52,580 nucleotides of DNA from Nitrospirota bacterium (GTDB lineage: Bacteria > Nitrospirota > Leptospirillia > Leptospirillales > Leptospirillaceae), in contig JAJYYA010000037.1 of assembly GCA_021801345.1 (NCBI GenBank), positions 1-52,580 on the forward strand, written 5' to 3'. This document shows, in pieces, positions 2,583 to 12,556 of this stretch; position 1 is the first letter of the stretch, and each line of letters opens with the position of its first letter. A program made the position numbers and the translations under genes. The notes beneath the pieces are model-generated. The model worked only from the letters and a program-made list of their open reading frames with translations. It was not told where the DNA came from and did no database searches.

Positions 2583-2875
2583 CCGGGGTGAGGGGGAGGA
2601 GTCCGGAGGGGGATCTTTCTGGGGGGGCCACAAAACAGGCATAAAGTGACCGGTCGACCAAGTTTTTCTTGCATTCACAGCGCTTGACGAGGAGGCCGAA
2701 AGGAAACCCTCCGCGAGGACCCGCGAAAATCCCCAAGGCCGACAATCCTCTCACTTCACCGGATTGATGACGAAAATAGACTCTTGACGAGATAGTGTGG
2801 GCAAAAAAAAGCATCTGGTGAGGTATAATTTTTCCGTGTGTTCATGGCCAAATGACAACACGGAGGACCCACCAG

Positions 2876-4006
2876 ATGCCTTATGAGCTTATCACGAGAC
2901 TTCTCGGCTTTCCAGACTTTCGCCTCGTCAACATCGAAACAGAGGAACGATCTGTCGTTCTGACGCTCGAAAGGGAAAAGATGACCTTTCGATGCGGCTC
3001 TTGTGGAAAAGAGGGCCTTCCCGGATATGACCACAAGATCCAAGAGGTCCGGCACCTTCTGTGGTGGCAGCATCCGACCGTGATTCGCTTCCCCCGGTAC
3101 CGTGTCTTCTGTCCGACGTGCGGGGTGGTTACGGAAGAGGTGGAATTCTTGCCGGTCCGGGGTCCTCGCGTGACCCGCCCGTTGGCCCATCTTGTCTATG
3201 AGCTGTGCAAGATCACGACGCACAAGGCGGTGGGGCTTCTTCTGGGTCTTCACCGGGGAACGGTGAAGGCGATCGACTGCGCGATGATGGAGAAGGTCCA
3301 GACGGAGCGTCCTCTCGACGGGATCGATGTTCTGGGATTCGACGAGATCGCGGCCGGCAAGGGGCAAAGCTACTGGACTTTGATCTGCGCTCCGGAAGGT
3401 CCGAGAGGGCCGGAACTTCTGCATATCGTGGAAGGACGCAAAGAGAAGGACCTGACGCCCTTCTGGAGCTGGTTTGGGAAAGAGCGAGCCCAGAAGGTCA
3501 CGCATGCCGTAATGGACATGTGGCCGGCCTTCAGAAAGAGCTTCCTGGCTCACTGTCCCAAGGGGAAAGTCATCTATGACAAATTCCACGTGATCCGCCA
3601 CCTTCTCGAGGCCGTCAATGAGGTGCGAAAACAGGAGCTCAAACGCCTGGGAGGAGCGTTCAAGGGCCTTCTCTCGGGAAAGAAGTTCGTGCTCCTGGCG
3701 CGGAGGTCGAACCTCAAGCCCGAGGCGAAAAAAGCCCTCTCGGAGCTTCTTCTCGTCAGCCCTCGTCTCCTTAAGGCCTATGTTCTCAAGGAGTCCTTCG
3801 ACCACCTCTGGGACTTTACGTCCCGGACATGGGCGATGAAGTTCTTCAGAAAATGGGTTGGAGCCTTGAAATGGAGCCGTCTGACGCCTCTCAAGAAGTT
3901 TGCCGCCATGGTGGAAGAGCACCTTGACGGGATTTTGTCCTACTGTGACAGGAAAGTTCCCTTAGGGTACGTTGAATCCACGAACCAAAAGGCAAAGAAC
4001 GTCATA
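2876..4006 (+). CDS. tnpA: ISL3-family transposase, 5' exon (codons 1-377)
   Basis: This is the DDE transposase of ISL3 elements. The N-terminal zinc-binding cysteines (CGSCG, CPTCG) lie in the first ~85 residues, then a helix-turn-helix region and the catalytic core: Asp in DVLGFDEIAAGKG, Asp in HAVMDMWPAF, and Glu in GYVESTNQKAKNVI at the very end of the exon. The start at 2876 is chosen for GGAGG nine bases upstream; an ATG at 2852 has no ribosome site. The frame stays open to 4090 only by reading 84 bases into the intron, so those last residues are spurious. The exon ends after codon 377 in phase 0, and the missing 34 residues are at 8502-8606. If the intron is not spliced, the transposase lacks its conserved C-terminus. 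Confidence 0.88.
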
Positions 4007-4645
4007 GTGCGACGAGAAAAGGCTCGTCAGGAATTGTTAAGCGTCATAGATTCTTATGGCGCAGTTAACCTTCCCTCCTCTGGGGAGTAACCTACCTGAG
4101 CGTGCGGCTCCGGTAACGGAACCGTGCGAAGCCTCAGGGACAATGTACCGGCTCTGCAAAGAGCGCTCTGAACTGTGAAGGGATGAACGGATCTGAAAAC
4201 CTCATTCGGATCCCGGGCTAGGTTGGGTGGTAGGGGCAACACATGTGAACTGTCGCAAGGATCGTGATCTTAAACAGGCGAAAGAGGTTGACGCCGCAAG
4301 GCGAGCGCCTGGCCCAAAATGGGAGGAAGTCGGTTGCAACCCTTTATGACTGGGTGCACAGAGGCACGGAACTTCCGGTCTAGAGACAGGCCCTACCCCA
4401 CCCGTGTTCCTGACGTAGCAACTCGGTAAGCCCCACCGGGCCCCGGAAGAACTATCCGGGAAAGCGCGCCCGTAAGGACCGCCCGCGCCCGAGGGGGTAA
4501 AGGATGGCGGAGAAAGCAAATGCCGGACTGTAATGGTCCGGATAGGGCGCGATCCGGTCAATGGGACGGGTCCATCGCCTAACGCGAAAGCGTGCAGACT
4601 TCCGCCGGGTCTTTCATCGCAAGAGAGTCTGGAGGCCTTTTGAAC

Positions 4646-5473
4646 ATGGGAACGCCAAGGAACGAGTCCGCACGATCGTGCGCCCCCGTGGACGTCAACG
4701 CGAAAACCTGGGACGAGATCGACTGGACCCGGTGCGCGAAGAACGTCAAAAAGCTGCAGATGCGCATTGCGAAGGCATTTAGGGAGGGAAAAGTTGCGAA
4801 AGCAAAGTATCTGCAACGGCTCCTGACCCGCTCGTATGCCGCGAAATGTCTGGCGGTCAAACGAGTCACCGAAAACAGGGGCAAGAACACTCCGGGGGTT
4901 GACAAAGACGTATGGAAGACCCCGGAGGCCAAGATGAACGCCGTGAGAACGTTGAAACGGAGAGGCTACACCGCTCTCCCCCTTCGTCGCGTGTACATTC
5001 CAAAGATGAACGGGAAGCTCCGGCCGCTAGGGATTCCGACGATGAAGGATCGGGCGATGCAAGGACTTCATGCCCTGGCCCTGCTACCCATCGCAGAAGA
5101 GACGGCGGACCCGAATTCCTATGGGTTTCGTCCCATTCGCTCCACCGCCGATGCGATCGAACAATGTTTCAGAGTCCTCAGTCGAAAAACATCGGCTCCG
5201 TGGGTGCTGGAAGGCGACATTACCGGCTGTTTCGACAATTTCTCGCACGACTGGATGCTTGAGCATGTTCCTATGGACAAGGCTCTGCTCCGGAAGTGGC
5301 TCACTACGGGTATATCGATCAACGGCAACTGCATCCGACACTCAAGGGGACCCCTCAGGGTGGCATTGTCTCCCCTGTCGCGGCCAACGTCGCTCTGGAC
5401 GGACTCGAAGATAATCTGAATCGGGAGTTCGCACAGAAGGACAAAGTTCACTTAGTGAGATATGCCGATGACT
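4646..5473 (+). pseudogene. ltrA: Outer intron reverse transcriptase/maturase, N-terminal part, frameshifted
   Basis: This is the intron-encoded protein of the outer group II intron, for reverse transcription and splicing. The start is the ATG at 4646, eleven bases after GGAGG. The N-terminal RT0-type region (KNVKKLQMRIAKA, then GKNTPGVD) and RT fingers/palm blocks (PLRRVYIPKMNGKLRPLGIP, SYGFRPIRSTADAIEQ, DITGCFDNFSHDWM) are clear. At about 5308-5311 a single base is missing: the frame moves from KWLTTG to GYIDQRQLHPTLKGTPQGG. The second frame runs on to RYADD at 5459-5473, where the nested intron begins. The C-terminal half continues at 7709. So the gene is broken once by insertion, which is removable by splicing, and once by deletion, which is not. 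Confidence 0.88.
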
Positions 5474-6109
5474 GTGCGACATGCTAAGCCATGTCGATGA
5501 TTGTTCAACGCAATAAGCAACTTATTGCGAAGTGAACCTGCCGTCTCCTCGGCAGTAATCTATCTGCGTCGGCGTGAATGGCAACGTTCGGGTCGAAAGC
5601 CGCAGAGACAATGTACGCACCCGCAAGGGCCATCCGAACCGCGAGGGAACGATGGGGGAGCCTGGCATCGGGAAAACCCGGCGGCTAGATTGGATGGACG
5701 GATCAGCATATGCGAATCACCGTACGGACCGCAGGCGTAAGCGAGCTTAAGATGCGATGGGGCTCGGGCCAACAAGGCGACGACACCGGCTACTCCCTGA
5801 GTCGTTGGGAGTACAGGAGCTCAAAAGGTGTCCGGTCTACAAGGTGGGATCCTCCCCGTCCGTGTCATCGATCTGGAACATGGTAAACCACACCGTGCCC
5901 CGGAGATTGTCTTTCCGGGACAGCGACCCGCAAGGGAAGCCCGTGCACGAGGTGGCAGAGGAGTTCGGAGAAAGCGAAGGCCTTCCCGTAATGGGGAGGA
6001 TAGCGGTTGAGGCGCAAGCCGACATCACCGCACGCGAAAGCGCGCAGACTTCCGGATGGTCTTTCGTCGCGAGAAGAACCAGAGAGCTTCGAACAAGGGA
6101 GAGCTAGTG

Positions 6110-7626
6110 ATGACCCAAAAGGTTGACGCCCCTTTGGACTCTGCATGCCGGAACCGGTTTGCTGAAAGGGTCAGAAGACTTCAGTTCCGCATCGCGAAGG
6201 CAACCCGAGAAGGCAAGTGGCGGTTGGTCAAAAACCTTCAGCGCTTGCTGACTCACTCGTACGCTGCGAAAGTTCTGGCAGTGGTCCGGGTGATGACGAA
6301 TCAGGGAAGAAACACACCGGGCGTCGACCGAATCGTTTGGAAGACACCGGAAGACAGACAGAAGGCGGTGGAATCGTTGACAGGGGGCGGCTACAAACCC
6401 CTTCCTTTGCGGCGAGTCTATATTCCGAAACGCAACGGCTCGCTTCGTCCGCTGGGGATTCCAACCATGAAGGATCGGGCCATGCAGGCCTTGCATCTGA
6501 TGGCTCTCATGCCCGTCGCCGAGGTTACCGCGGACAAGGACTCCTATGGTTTTCGACCCAAGAGATCCGCCGCCGATGCCATCGAACAATGCTTTTCTTC
6601 GTTGGCCAGGCGATGCTCTCCAAGATGGATTCTCGAATTCGATATCAAGGGGTGTTTCGATTCGATCAGTCACGACTGGCTGATGACCCACATCCCGATG
6701 GACAAGGGGATTCTCCAGAAGTGGCTCAAGGCCGGTTACATCGACCGTCGAAGACTCTTTCCGAGTCAGGCCGGAACCCCGCAAGGTGGGATTATTTCCG
6801 CGTGCCTCGCCAATATGGCCCTTGATGGATTGCAAGAAGAGCTCAAAAGGCACTTTCGAGTCAAGGACAAGGTCAACCTGATACGCTATGCCGACGATGG
6901 CGTCGTGACAGGAGTCTCGAAGGAGCTTCTGGAGCAAAGCGTCCTTCCCGTCGTCAAGGATTTCATGCGGGGAAGGGGTCTGGAGCTTTCCCAAGAAAAG
7001 ACCCGCGTCGTGCATATCACGGAAGGCTTCGATTTTCTCGGGCAGAATGTTCGGAAATACGGGAAGAACAGGCAGAAACTGTTTATAACTCCCGCACGGA
7101 AGAACGTTCAAAGTGTCTTGCGCAAGACCCGGGACTTCCTCAAAAAGGCGCAGGCGTTTCCCCAAGAGACCGTCATTTCCGTTCTCAACCCGATTCTCCG
7201 GGGATGGGGAACTATCATCGCCATGTCGTCTCAAAACATCGATTTGGAAGGGTCGACCACGCCGTCTGGACTATGCTGTGGCGATGGAGCAAACGCCGGC
7301 ATCCCAATAAGCGGGACACCTGGGTCAAGGACCGTTATTTCCAGAGGATCGGACCCCGCAAATGGGTCTTCGCCACCCCGCCAAAAGGAAAAGGAGCTCT
7401 GTCACATATCTTGTTCAGTGTGGCGGACATCCCGATACGGCGCCATATCAAGATCAGAAAGGATGCCAATCCTTTTGATCCACAATGGACCGAATACTTT
7501 GAGAAGCGCGAGCAACTCAAACGTTCCGGCAAAGGGAGAATCTCCTTTCTGGAACAGGTTCAGGAAGCCACGCATACCCTGTTCGACAAGGTAGCCGGGC
7601 TCTTTCGGAAGAAAGAGTCTTCTTGA
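6110..7626 (+). pseudogene. ltrA: Inner intron reverse transcriptase/maturase, single frameshift
   Basis: Group II intron reverse transcriptase in domain IV. The start is the ATG at 6110, with GGGAG upstream. Blocks seen in order: RT0 (GRNTPGVD), PLRRVYIPKRNGSLRPLGIP, SYGFRPKRSAADAIEQ, FDIKGCFDSISHDWL, GTPQGGIIS, the catalytic RYADD near residue 260, and the maturase thumb NPILRGWG. One base is missing near 7211: the frame switches to NYHRHVVSKHRFGRVDH and continues to LFRKKESS at 7626. If the missing base were restored the protein would be about 505 residues. No HNH endonuclease cysteines or histidines follow the maturase/DNA-binding part (RRRHPNK-type segment near the end). The defect could be real decay or a homopolymer sequencing error next to a G run. 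Confidence 0.88.
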
Positions 7627-7633
7627 AAGGCTT

Positions 7634-7708
7634 GAGCTGACTGCGGTGCAAGCCGCACGGTCAGTTCTTAGGGGGGGGTGGCGCAGTAATGCGTTGCCCC
7701 TACCCGAC
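7634..7708 (+). ncRNA. Inner intron ribozyme domains V and VI
   Basis: Domain V at 7634-7667 opens with GAGC, has a GCAA tetraloop flanked by GCGGT/GCCGC stems and closes with GTTC. Domain VI at about 7670-7703 pairs the G-rich strand with TTGCCCC and leaves A7702 as the likely bulged branch point. Confidence 0.85.
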
Positions 7709-8388
7709 TCATCGTCACGGGAGCGTCAAAAGAGCTCCTCGAGAAGAAAGTCCGACCCCTTGTCGAAGAGTTCCTGAAGGAACGTGGATTGGATCTCTCG
7801 GAGGAAAAGACCCGCATCGTGCACATCACGGACGGTTTCGTTTTTCTGGGACAGGAAGTCAGAAAATACGGGGAAAAGCTCCTTATCACCCCGTCAAAGA
7901 AGAACGTCAAGTACTTCCTATCGACAGTCCGGAACATCATCTGGAAATCGAAAGCCACACGCCAGGAGGATCTGATCGAAACGCTGAATCCGCTCATCCG
8001 GGGATGGGCCAATTTTCACCGGCACATCGTGGCCAAGAAGACCTTCGGGTGGATCGATCATCACATCTGGCAAATGCTGTGGAGATGGGCCAGACGCCGT
8101 CACCCGAACAAGGGAGCACGTTGGGTGAGGAAGAAATACTTCCCCAAAGTCGGTCCGCGCAAGTGGACCTTCACTCCCGAGAACGGGAAGGGACCGAGAC
8201 TTCTGCAAGCCTCGGCCACCCCGATCAGACGACACGTCAAGGTCATCAGTCAAGCCCATCCGTTCGACCCGAAATGGACGCCCTACTTCGAGGAAAGAAA
8301 GCGCACACCGACTTTCCGCGAGACCGTCAAGAAGAAGATCAAGGCGGCGAAGGCATCCTTCGGGGTTCCCGGCACCCCTGAGACGTGA
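7709..8388 (+). pseudogene. ltrA: Outer intron reverse transcriptase/maturase, C-terminal part
   Basis: Continuation of the outer intron protein after the nested intron. The first codon is completed by T5473 plus TC at 7709, giving Phe directly after YADD, then IVTGASKELLEKKVRPLVEE. The thumb/maturase region (LNPLIRGWANFHRHIV) and the conserved WRWARRRHPNK segment follow; the end FGVPGTPET has no HNH zinc-binding endonuclease. In the unspliced sequence the only start for this half would be a weak internal ATG at 7789, so it is not an independent gene. It closely resembles the inner intron protein throughout, including the missing endonuclease domain. Confidence 0.85.
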
Positions 8389-8426
8389 ATGCCGGGTTCG
8401 GGTAACACCGGGCTTAGGAAAGGCAC

Positions 8427-8501
8427 GAGCGGACTGCGGGGAAACTCGCACGGTCCGTTCTTGGAGGGCTTGGGGCTGGCAACAGCCCCCGGCCACTCGA
8501 C
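8427..8501 (+). ncRNA. Outer intron ribozyme domains V and VI
   Basis: Domain V at 8427-8460 starts GAGCGGACTGCGG, has a GAAA loop and ends CGGTCCGTTC. Domain VI follows, with stem GGGGCTG/CAGCCCC and A8495 as the likely branch point seven bases before the 3' splice site. Confidence 0.85.
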
Positions 8502-8606
8502 CGTCGAGCCTATGGCTACCGGGACAAAGACTTTAAAAAGCTCAAAATCATTCAGGCTTGCACCCCTTGGCTGAACGAATTCCAACCCTGGAGCCGCTAC
8601 CCATAG
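8502..8606 (+). CDS. tnpA: ISL3-family transposase, 3' exon (last 34 codons)
   Basis: Thirty-four codons plus the stop TAG encode RRAYGYRDKDFKKLKIIQAC and the tail TPWLNEFQPWSRYP, the usual C-terminus of ISL3 transposases. Together with 2876-4006 this gives an intact 411-residue protein with no frame error. It is expressed as transposase only if the intron is removed. Confidence 0.9.
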   Translation, partial: RRAYGYRDKDFKKLKIIQACTPWLNEFQPWSRYP

Positions 8607-8617
8607 TTTGTCGTCAT

Positions 8618-9148
8618 GTGCCTCTTTTCTTCGCCGGAGAGAAGGGAACTTCGCATGGGCTTCTCGTGATTGACGGGGTGTCTATGGAACTCTATGGACT
8701 TCCCCGGAGGACTCTCGATATCGATGCCGAGGTCTCCTGCTCCCCGGATTTTTATGAAGAACTCGTCCGGCATCTCCGCGAAAAGGGATTCCTGTTCAAT
8801 CTTGGAGATGATATCGACCATTGGGGGGTGATTCCTCTTCCGGAAGGATACGGTGAAAGGTCCCAAACGGTTTTGTCGATCGGACAGAGCGGCGTCAAGG
8901 TTCTCGATCCGCTCGACTTCATTGCCAGCAAACTCCGGAGGGGAATCGACCAGGATCTTTCGGATGCCCGTGCGGTCGCTCTCCGTTTCTCGCTCTCTGC
9001 CCTTGACATCGCCTCTCACATGACAAAAATCCGTTTTCCTCTCAGCGAAGAAACCTTCATGTTCAAAAAGAGACTGACGGTTTTCCTCAATGATCTGGAG
9101 ACGAATCCTGATATGACACCGCCGGAGGATTCCCGTGCCCCTCGCTGA
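8618..9148 (+). CDS. Nucleotidyltransferase-like protein (DUF6036-type), possibly 5'-truncated by the ISL3 element
   Basis: The motif GVSMELYGLPRRTLDIDAEV matches the glycine loop and DxD of the DNA polymerase beta-like nucleotidyltransferases of the DUF6036/AbiEii type, which often act as antitoxins or modifying enzymes. VLDPLDFIASKLRRG is also typical. The frame extends left into the ISL3 3' end, so the native start was probably lost or replaced. The first start codon beyond the IS end is GTG at 8618, leaving about 20 residues before the motif, close to the usual distance. The 3' end overlaps the phosphoesterase gene by 14 bases, implying co-translation. Family assignment is by motif only. 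Confidence 0.65.
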   Translation: MPLFFAGEKGTSHGLLVIDGVSMELYGLPRRTLDIDAEVSCSPDFYEELVRHLREKGFLFNLGDDIDHWGVIPLPEGYGERSQTVLSIGQSGVKVLDPLDFIASKLRRGIDQDLSDARAVALRFSLSALDIASHMTKIRFPLSEETFMFKKRLTVFLNDLETNPDMTPPEDSRAPR

Positions 9149-9957: not shown

Positions 9958-10132
9958 ACTGACCGCCCATATGGATCCATTCCCGGATCGGTCTAATGGA
10001 GCCACTTCCGGATCGGCCTAATGGAGCCACCTCCGGATCGGCCTAATGGAGCCACTTCCGGATCGGCCTAATGGAGCCACCTCCGGATCGGCCTAATGGA
10101 GCCACTTCCGGATCGGCCTAATGGAGCCACCT
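9958..10132 (+). repeat. IS21 left-end tandem 25-bp repeats
   Basis: One diverged unit (9958-9982) and six near-perfect 25-bp units (9983-10007, 10008-10032, 10033-10057, 10058-10082, 10083-10107, 10108-10132). Units alternate CACTT and CACCT at their 3' edge, giving a 50-bp higher-order period. In IS21 elements such repeats are transposase-binding sites. Confidence 0.92.
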
Positions 10133-10202
10133 CCCAGGGTGTGATCGTCTCTTGGACCTTCTAAAGGCAAAGAGTACCTTTCTTGATTGGAAAGGAGGCT
10201 CT

Positions 10203-11774
10203 ATGGCCAACAGGAGGTTTCAAGTGTACGAAATCAGACAAGTCCTTGTTCAAATGCGTGGAGGGGCCTCGGACCGGGTTGTCGCCCAGTCCGGGCTCGT
10301 GGGAAGAAAGAAATCCGCCTGGATCCGACAGATTGCCGGTGAAAAGGGATGGCTGAACCCTGCCAACGTCCTTCCGGACGATCCTGTCCTGGCACTCGCG
10401 TTGGATCCTCCCCGGGAACGTCCGGAGGTCGCCTCGTCGGTTGCGACATGGGAGAAGGAGATCCTCTCATGGGCGCAGGAAGGCATCCGTTGGACAACGA
10501 TTCACAAGACCTTGTGCCGACGCTACGGGTACGAGGGAAGCTACTCGGCCGTCCGGCGCTTTCTTCAGACGCGAATCCAGAAGGATCCGGCCTCTTTGGC
10601 CACGGTCATGTTGGACTTTTCTCCGGGGGAAGCCGCCCAGGTCGACTTTGGAACGGGGCCCCCGCTTCTTGACCCGGTCAGCGGGAATCTCGCCAAAACA
10701 TGGATCTTCGTGATGACCTTGTGCCATTCCCGGCACCAGTATGCGGAGATCGTCTTCGACCAAAGCGTTCGAACCTGGTGCGGGCTTCATCGCCGGGCCT
10801 TTGAATGGTTCGGGGGCGTCCCTAAAAAAATGATTCTCGACAACCTGAAGGCCGGGATTGTCCGAGCCTGCTACTACGATCCTGAGGCCCAGCGTTCCTA
10901 TGCGGGACTGGCCGAAGGATACGGGTTCATGATTTCCCCTTGCCCTGTCGCGGATCCTGAAAAAAAAGGGCGCGTCGAGGCGGGGGTCAAGTACGTCAAA
11001 AATGCCTTCTTTCCTTTGCGGACCTTCGCCAACATCAACGTCGCCAACAAAGAGCTGGAATCCTGGGTGACGGGCGAGGCCGGCAACCGGATCCACGGCA
11101 CCACCCGCAAGAGGCCTCTCGATCTCTTTGGGAGCGTTGAAAAGAACTTTCTCGGTCCTCTTCCGGACCGCCCCGTCGAGATCGTTGTCTGGGAAAAGCA
11201 CAAGGTGCAAAACACCGGGCACATCACCTTTGAAAAAAACTCCTACTCGGTTCCCTACTTCCACATCAAAAAAGACGTCTGGGTCAAGGCGGGAGACACG
11301 CTTCTCTGGATCTACGACCAGAAGACGAGCCTGATCGCCACACATCCGCGGCTGAAAGGAGCGGGACGCAGGAACACGGTCGAAGCGCACATGCCGCCCA
11401 ATGCCCAGGCGTACTTCATGAAGGACCCCGTCTGGTGTCGTGAAAAGGCGGGACGAATCGGTCCCGCCTGTCGCGAAGTCGTCGAGCAGCTTTTTGCCGA
11501 CACCGTCATGGACAATCTTCGGAAAGTCCAGGGCATCCTGGGCCTGGCCGAGCGAAATACCCCCCCACGACTCGAGGAGGCCTGCAAGCGGGCCCTTGTG
11601 TTTGGAAACATCCACTACAGAACGATCAAGTCCATCCTCGACAAGGGGCTGGACATCGTCTCCGAAGAGACCGCCCGGGAGCAGCTTCCATCCATCTACA
11701 CGCAGGGGAAGAACCGCTTTGCTCCCCCCTCTTCGGCTCACCCCTCCCTTCCCAGACAGGAGCGTTCTCTATGA
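10203..11774 (+). CDS. istA: IS21 transposase IstA
   Basis: DDE transposase of IS21 elements. An N-terminal helix-turn-helix (VYEIRQVLVQMRGGASDRVV) is followed by the catalytic core with Asp in QVDFGTG (about residue 155), Asp in MILDNLKAG and Glu in GRVEAGVKYVKNAF. The C-terminal region (KNSYSVPYFHIKKDVWVK) is typical of IstA. Length is 523 residues, as expected. The start at 10203 is chosen because AAAGGAGG lies just upstream; an ATG at 10152 has none. The stop overlaps the istB start by four bases (ATGA), the usual istAB coupling. The gene appears intact. Confidence 0.94.
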   Translation: MANRRFQVYEIRQVLVQMRGGASDRVVAQSGLVGRKKSAWIRQIAGEKGWLNPANVLPDDPVLALALDPPRERPEVASSVATWEKEILSWAQEGIRWTTIHKTLCRRYGYEGSYSAVRRFLQTRIQKDPASLATVMLDFSPGEAAQVDFGTGPPLLDPVSGNLAKTWIFVMTLCHSRHQYAEIVFDQSVRTWCGLHRRAFEWFGGVPKKMILDNLKAGIVRACYYDPEAQRSYAGLAEGYGFMISPCPVADPEKKGRVEAGVKYVKNAFFPLRTFANINVANKELESWVTGEAGNRIHGTTRKRPLDLFGSVEKNFLGPLPDRPVEIVVWEKHKVQNTGHITFEKNSYSVPYFHIKKDVWVKAGDTLLWIYDQKTSLIATHPRLKGAGRRNTVEAHMPPNAQAYFMKDPVWCREKAGRIGPACREVVEQLFADTVMDNLRKVQGILGLAERNTPPRLEEACKRALVFGNIHYRTIKSILDKGLDIVSEETAREQLPSIYTQGKNRFAPPSSAHPSLPRQERSL

Positions 11775-12556
11775 ATCCCCTTCCCGAACTTGTTCCCATG
11801 TTGAAAAAACTCCATCTTCTGGGTCTCGTCGACTCTCTCGAGCGCCGCAACCGGGAGGCCCTCGAGCAGAAGCTGGCCTACACGGAGTTCCTCTCTCTTC
11901 TGATCTCCGACGAAGTGGCCCGACGGGAGAGGGGGCTCCTGACCCAGAGGCTCAAACGGGCCGGCTTCCGTCAGGAGAAGACGATCGAGACCTTTGATTT
12001 TAGCCGTCTTCCCCATGTGGACCGGAGGCTTTTTTCCGAGCTGGACACCGCGAACTTCGTCCGGGAGCCCGCCAACGTTCTTCTGGTCGGTCCCTGTGGC
12101 GTGGGAAAGAGTCATGTGGCTCAAGCCCTAGGACATGCGGCGGCCCGGGAGGGGCACGATGTGTTGATGGCGACTCCCGCCCAGCTGTTGGGGAGTCTGC
12201 AGGCGGCCCGGGCCACGCTCACGTACGACAGGCGCTTCCAGACGCTCTGCAAGGTCCCGCTCCTCATCGTCGACGACTTCCTCCTCAAACCCTTGCCTGC
12301 GTCTCAGGAAGAGGATCTGCACGACCTTGTGTCGGAGCGATATGAGAAAAAAGCGACGATCATCACCTCCAACCTCCATCCGGACGAATGGGGGCAGGCC
12401 TTTGCCAATCGCCTTCTCGGAGAGGCCACAGTCGACAGGCTTCGGCACAATGCCTATGTAGTGGTTCTCGAGGGGCCCAGCTACCGGATGCCCCGCTCCT
12501 CCGCATCCGTTGCCGACGAGGGAAAGAATGTCTCGAAAAAGGAGGTCAAAGTGTAA
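11771..12556 (+). CDS. istB: IS21 ATP-binding protein IstB
   Basis: AAA+ ATPase that partners IstA in target selection. Walker A is GPCGVGKSH at about residue 100 and Walker B is LLIVDDF; sensor-1 IITSNL and the arginine-bearing ANRLLGEATVDRLRH follow. Length is 261 residues, typical of the family. It is coupled to istA through an ATGA overlap. The final residues (VSKKEVKV) lie just before the putative operator of the KfrA-like gene. Intact. Confidence 0.94.
   Translation: MNPLPELVPMLKKLHLLGLVDSLERRNREALEQKLAYTEFLSLLISDEVARRERGLLTQRLKRAGFRQEKTIETFDFSRLPHVDRRLFSELDTANFVREPANVLLVGPCGVGKSHVAQALGHAAAREGHDVLMATPAQLLGSLQAARATLTYDRRFQTLCKVPLLIVDDFLLKPLPASQEEDLHDLVSERYEKKATIITSNLHPDEWGQAFANRLLGEATVDRLRHNAYVVVLEGPSYRMPRSSASVADEGKNVSKKEVKV

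Follow-up and report, generated by a model that had tools for sequence, protein, structure and literature searches.

The window, i.e. the entire 52,580-nucleotide stretch of Nitrospirota DNA analysed here, contains a group II intron inside the transposase gene of an ISL3 element and a second group II intron inside the RT gene of the first. Very likely, this stack arose by two successive arrivals of group II introns that encode an RT and are probably of the chloroplast-like (CL) class: the outer one came to lie in the ISL3 transposase gene and the inner one, by EBS pairing, at the YADD codons of the outer RT gene, and the inner lineage appears to be specialised on the RT genes of other group II introns. 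Of this history, the nesting, its junctions, the empty sites, the recurrence in three hosts and the conserved guide-target registers can be read from the sequences themselves. The nest consists of the following features.

2779..2801, + strand: left terminal inverted repeat of ISL3 (GACTCTTGACGAGATAGTGTGGG), approximate; imperfect inverted match to 8600-8622.
2852..4006, + strand: 5' exon of the ISL3 transposase, 385 codons, alternative ATG at 2876; Pfam DDE_Tnp_ISL3 (3.5e-54) and Zn_ribbon_ISL3; empty copy.
4007..8501, + strand: outer group II intron, 2260 nt once the inner intron is subtracted; RF02012 and RF00029; empty ISL3 copy.
4345..4350, + strand: outer EBS1 TATGAC in a 9-nt terminal loop; pairs with GTCATA at 4001-4006.
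4646..5473, + strand: 5' part of the outer RT gene, start codon not fixed (GTG 4592 or ATG 4646); -1 frameshift near 5311.
5461..5473, + strand: target of the inner intron, IBS2 TATGCC (5461-5466) and IBS1 GATGACT (5467-5473); codons Tyr-Ala-Asp-Asp-T.
5474..7708, + strand: inner group II intron, 2235 nt; RF02012 and RF00029; empty site in L147, relatives in L014 and L015.
5734..5739, + strand: inner EBS2 GGCGTA; register kept in L014 with one compensatory change.
5800..5806, + strand: inner EBS1 AGTCGTT, pairing reaching 5808, in a 9-nt terminal loop.
6110..7626, + strand: inner RT gene; -1 frameshift near 7207, own YADD-Gly motif at 6887-6901.
7632..7708, + strand: inner domains V-VI, branch A at 7702; RF00029, covariation.
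7709..8388, + strand: 3' part of the outer RT gene.
8425..8501, + strand: outer domains V-VI, branch A at 8495; RF00029, covariation.
8502..8606, + strand: 3' exon of the ISL3 transposase, 34 codons and stop; open frame after excision, empty copy.
8600..8622, - strand: right terminal inverted repeat of ISL3, approximate; imperfect pair with 2779-2801.

An earlier note, made from the letters of this DNA alone, had proposed the three stacked mobile layers, and the Rfam covariance models and natural empty sites bear it out. The covariance-model search, which the note had suggested as a check, placed group II D1-D4 and domains V-VI for both introns. With scores above the gathering thresholds, RF02012 (D1-D4) matches the + strand at 4069-4217 and 5537-5688 and RF00029 (domains V-VI) at 7632-7708 and 8425-8501 (51.5 bits each), the matches following one another in the order outer-inner-inner-outer. 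The inner intron thus lies entirely within the outer one, each with junctions of its own, which makes the pair a twintron. Both introns possess the D1-D4 core, the domains V-VI with a bulged A, and GTGYG...AY ends at exact exon junctions that characterise group II. The ends are GTGCGAC...CGAC in both; GTGCG and CGAC, domain V and the A located 7 nt before the end had been correctly noted before. Pairing with the exons involves EBS1 and EBS2 in the inner intron and EBS1 in the outer one. In the 15 introns of our set the helices of domains V-VI covary, with two-sided changes in 21 of 28 pairs and the branch A bulged 7 nt from the end.

The outermost layer carries the ISL3 transposase domains PF01610 and PF14690 of Pfam, and its imperfect terminal inverted repeats also flank an uninterrupted copy in the sister genome G009. 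No 8-bp target duplication was obvious by eye at the inferred, approximate ends of the element. The G009 copy (contig C30) has an open frame of 419 aa with 95% aa identity and reads AACGTCATA|CGGAGAGCC, with CGG after the junction, while the window after removal of 4007-8501 reads AACGTCATA|CGTCGAGCC. The junction 4006|8502 is confirmed, since the empty copy joins the same bases. Excision of the outer intron gives an open frame of 419 aa; counted from the internal ATG (2876) it has 411 aa, and this is the 411-codon transposase expected earlier. A similar comparison is possible for the inner intron. L147 from the sister genome G010 is related to the outer intron (identity after the insertion site 86% nt and 83% aa), lacks the inner one and reads YADDF without interruption (GCCGATGACTTCGTC), which confirms the junction 5473|7709; joining 5473 to 7709 in the window restores the local RT frame, reading YADDFIVTGASKELLE. 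Hence, both junctions named in the earlier note, 4006/8502 and 5473/7709, are exact to the base, and the empty homologue with different junctions that by its own account would have spoken against it was not seen among the relatives, in which the ISL3 and the RT junctions both agreed.

The genome is a draft of 73 contigs, in which intron ends are found at contig ends (C7, C17), and the assembly might in principle have fused unrelated repeats. However, both junctions are exact, preserve the reading frame and agree with the empty sites, and the same kind of nesting is present in two other assemblies, so that the probability of such an artefact is negligible.

The earlier note called the arrangement inside a transposon gene unusual and treated it as a curiosity; it stopped short of seeing that the inner intron turns up again, in different host introns, at the same RT active-site codon. 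In the window, the inner intron splits the catalytic motif of the RT as Tyr-Ala-Asp-Asp-T|intron. It has relatives in two further genomes of the genus, L014 in G010 (88% identity across the full 2235 nt) and L015 in G009 (83%, 5' part lost). Both interrupt RT genes that belong to group II introns, and the interrupted nucleotide is exactly that of the window. The 5' exon at the insertion is TATGCCGATGACT| in the window and TTCGCCGACGACT| in L014, and the 3' exon of L015, (T)GG GTG CTG ACC or WVLTG, is in frame to follow YADD. The insertion site is readable in these three copies only, L015 being without its 5' half and the inner-lineage copy of G012 being a fragment. Nevertheless, the same RT-gene site has been entered at one and the same nucleotide in three different host introns.

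A more careful comparison of hosts and inner copies bears on how this came about. After the insertion site, the three host introns are 55-60% identical to one another in nucleotides and 49-58% in amino acids, and the corresponding values for the inner copies are 80-85% (3' parts) and 86-93% (RTs). The identical interrupted nucleotide in 3/3 hosts would be expected if one ancient insertion lay behind all three nests, with host and inner intron diverging together ever since. Such an insertion would have let hosts and inner copies diverge alike, but divergence is far greater among the hosts, even though host and inner RTs are homologous, and L147, the relative of the window's outer intron, has no inner intron at all. 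We therefore regard a single ancient insertion as very improbable, and the three copies most plausibly go back to independent insertions into a single conserved target.

The junction pattern TWYGCNGAYGAYNGTGYGAC occurs among 396 Nitrospirota genomes in the window and in G010 only (the G009 copy, L015, lacks the 5' part). A single match in 50 genomes of distant relatives had no RT context and was taken as chance, and of four matches in viral contigs, obtained with T fixed at -1, none (0/4) was in an RT.

Several other loci were seen along the way. At a contig end of the window's own genome, L012 (C17, 1-126) contains a 3' intron end nearly identical to that of the host intron of L014, and this genome probably carries an L014-type host intron too, the remainder of which is missing from the assembly. 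On the minus strand of contig C40 of G010, L146 is a 3' piece with 78% nt identity to the inner intron, and the coding sequence after it (...RRSGSFNIQTGSGVVQGISHKLCRLLQRADGYGYSW) is presumably of the IscB type. L011 (own genome C18, ~36.0-36.8 kb, minus strand) is a short group II intron that lacks an RT gene; it sits directly after an IstB-like gene and directly before a CRISPR-like array (repeat GTGAACCACCGCATAGGTGGCTTAGAA). In the window itself, tandem ~25 bp copies (TTCCGGATCGGCCTAATGGAGCCAC) at 9990-10135 immediately precede an IS21-like gene pair (10152-12556), and a glycine-rich repeat protein (VGGVVGYNNGGTVTTSYNTG repeats) at 1-1491 is cut by the window edge.

The guides of the inner intron were sought by scoring 640 registers of pairing between the intron and its 5' exon for preservation in both the window and L014. 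The two best preserved registers correspond to EBS1, with 9 pairs in the window and 7 contiguous ones in L014 (one mismatch, at -2), and to EBS2, with 6 pairs in each. The EBS2 partner is TATGCC in the window and TTTCGC in L014, the register being the same with one compensatory change. In the fold of the window sequence, the inner EBS1 is located in a 9-nt terminal loop, and the outer EBS1 (UAUGAC) occupies the corresponding loop, where it pairs with GTCATA of the transposase gene; an outer EBS2 of 6 pairs or more was not found. A G of the inner EBS1 faces the third base of the first Asp codon, and both GAT and GAC pair with it. The inner guides EBS2 and EBS1 are thus predicted to read the codons Tyr/Phe-Ala-Asp-Asp.

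The RT of the inner lineage has a YADD motif of its own, followed by Gly in 4/4 copies that include the motif. Across the sampled RT motifs, the residue after YADD is Phe in 67 of 80 and Leu in 5, or 72/80 together. With Gly in this place, position -1 no longer pairs and the +1 base is different, IBS2 remaining intact in the window. These observations are only suggestive of self-avoidance, by which the inner intron would spare its own RT gene.

A second bacterial lineage of introns within RT genes is represented in Chlorobiaceae by L030 (1336-3491) and L064 (inner end at 1699), at the motif HITEGFDF|LGWNVRKY. Their inner introns are ~92% identical, and their EBS1 GAAATC pairs perfectly with GATTTC (6 pairs), which suggests that RT motifs have been hit more than once in bacteria. 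The RT gene of L030 itself keeps the IBS1 GATTTC and differs only around IBS2. Self-avoidance therefore does not appear to generalise in a simple way and, if real, would rely on other means in this lineage.

In group II introns, the intron RNA together with the RT reverse-splices into a DNA target that is selected by EBS pairing. The closest solved structure to the inner RT (L014 copy) is the maturase RT 6ME0 (E 2.7e-168), which we take to be that of the T. elongatus intron TeI4h, a CL/IIB intron. The inner lineage is best interpreted as group II introns, probably of the CL class, that use an RNA guide to home into the RT genes of other introns, at their most conserved codons. The order of arrival would be the ISL3 element, the outer intron and the inner intron: the outer intron would have retrohomed into the transposase gene via EBS1 and GTCATA, and the inner one into the outer RT gene via EBS2 and EBS1 and the catalytic YADD codons, its lineage having probably specialised on such genes. 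For expression, the inner intron would splice out first, giving the outer RT, and the outer one would follow, giving the transposase. The intact inner RT of L014 has the domains RVT_N, RVT_1 and GIIM, and no endonuclease domain was found in it by Pfam search. Without such a domain, priming would use the ends at replication forks (PMC4424553).

The transposase needs the departure of both introns, and the nest could for this reason be viewed as a domesticated two-step switch, retained for limiting ISL3 transposition. However, the ISL3 copy of G009 is uninterrupted, the RTs are frameshifted in the window genome, and there is no sign of selection on the arrangement at the window locus, all of which makes this explanation highly unlikely. 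A more far-reaching version of the preferred history, two mobile introns arriving in turn, is put forward tentatively, and we lean somewhat against it. It holds that the inner lineage is a dedicated parasite of introns: its guide would be antisense to the YADD codons common to nearly all group II RTs, either Asp codon being tolerated, its own gene would be avoided via YADD-Gly, competitors would be silenced until it splices itself out, and a parallel lineage in Chlorobiaceae would act on DF|LGW.

The group II twintron in an ISL3 transposase gene described in the earlier note stands, but frameshifts in both RT genes had escaped it. The outer RT stays out of frame even after removal of the inner intron, as one base is missing near 5311 (WLTTG / YIDQRQ), and the inner RT lacks one base near 7207, where the window has 4 G and L014 and L015 have 5 G. 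Owing to these deletions, neither intron encodes an intact RT in the window genome, which is not required for group II status, and a search of its assembly for another RT found none. The nested pair at L014 has open frames for both of its RTs, and the RT dN/dS of the inner lineage is 0.10-0.13. A general sequencing-error rate is disfavoured as the source of the frameshifts: in 12.6 kb of the window aligned with G012 (89% identity), gaps are concentrated in the intergenic parts and none of a single base interrupts a long gene, compared to two in ~2.9 kb of RT gene. A local sequencing error is a possible source of both, as each lies in a short G run.

With one base lost from each RT and no further RT seen in the assembly, the window copy is probably decaying and no longer mobile, and its splicing may be poor. 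The chances appear even that decay has gone further, the loss of maturase activity having left both introns poorly spliced and the ISL3 copy dead. The missing base in each RT, the clean coding alignment with G012 and the lack of a second RT source point in this direction, but the G runs leave room for local errors, the ribozyme ends and domains V-VI are intact, and the transposase frame is open across the junction. An inert nest concerns the present state only and is compatible with an origin by sequential homing.

Methanosarcina is a documented case of group II introns inserting into the RT genes of related introns (PMC1712230; PMC4424553, citing Dai & Zimmerly 2003). As these papers describe them, the nests of Methanosarcina acetivorans resemble ours in that site-specific insertion in the RT genes of related introns means that the introns provide their own homing sites, and differ in being archaeal, up to five deep and flanked by noncoding exons (PMC4424553, PMC1712230). 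The window nest is bacterial, uses YADD codons and resides in an ISL3 transposase gene, a comparison that covers nest depth, host domain and flanking exons as given in those papers. In Thermosynechococcus elongatus, TeI3 in TeI4 involves the same broad RT class and one family repeatedly found at a conserved RT-gene site of other introns, and another intron family inserts in an IS; however, the inner introns have no ORF and lie between two RT start codons, leaving the RT usable (PMC2882425), whereas the inner intron of the window carries an RT gene itself and cuts through the catalytic motif of its host. The Trichodesmium twintron Tr.e.I7-Tr.e.I8 is likewise bacterial, in a coding gene and with an RT gene in each intron, and its sequential splicing was shown in vivo, but its host is a conserved cellular gene and it does not recur in other introns (PMC4649490). 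The mat1f twintrons of the Porphyridium plastid share one inner intron at the same site in two different outer introns, whose RTs are, in contrast, truncated remnants (PMC4476101).

A literature search for group II introns in Leptospirillum found no paper. As far as the literature consulted shows, with Methanosarcina known from the descriptions cited, recurrent use of the YADD codons as insertion site by an RT-encoding intron appears to be new, as does a stack of three mobile elements with a coding transposase as the outermost exon. The possible self-avoidance and the bacterial ISL3-transposase setting may also be counted as new. In summary, a bacterial mobile intron appears to be repeatedly directed to the codons that are best conserved in the replication enzyme of its relatives, and the inner EBS would represent a natural guide against a conserved RT motif. 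With its empty sites, intact sister pair and readable guides, the nest is a small system in which parasitism of introns on introns and self-avoidance can be tested.
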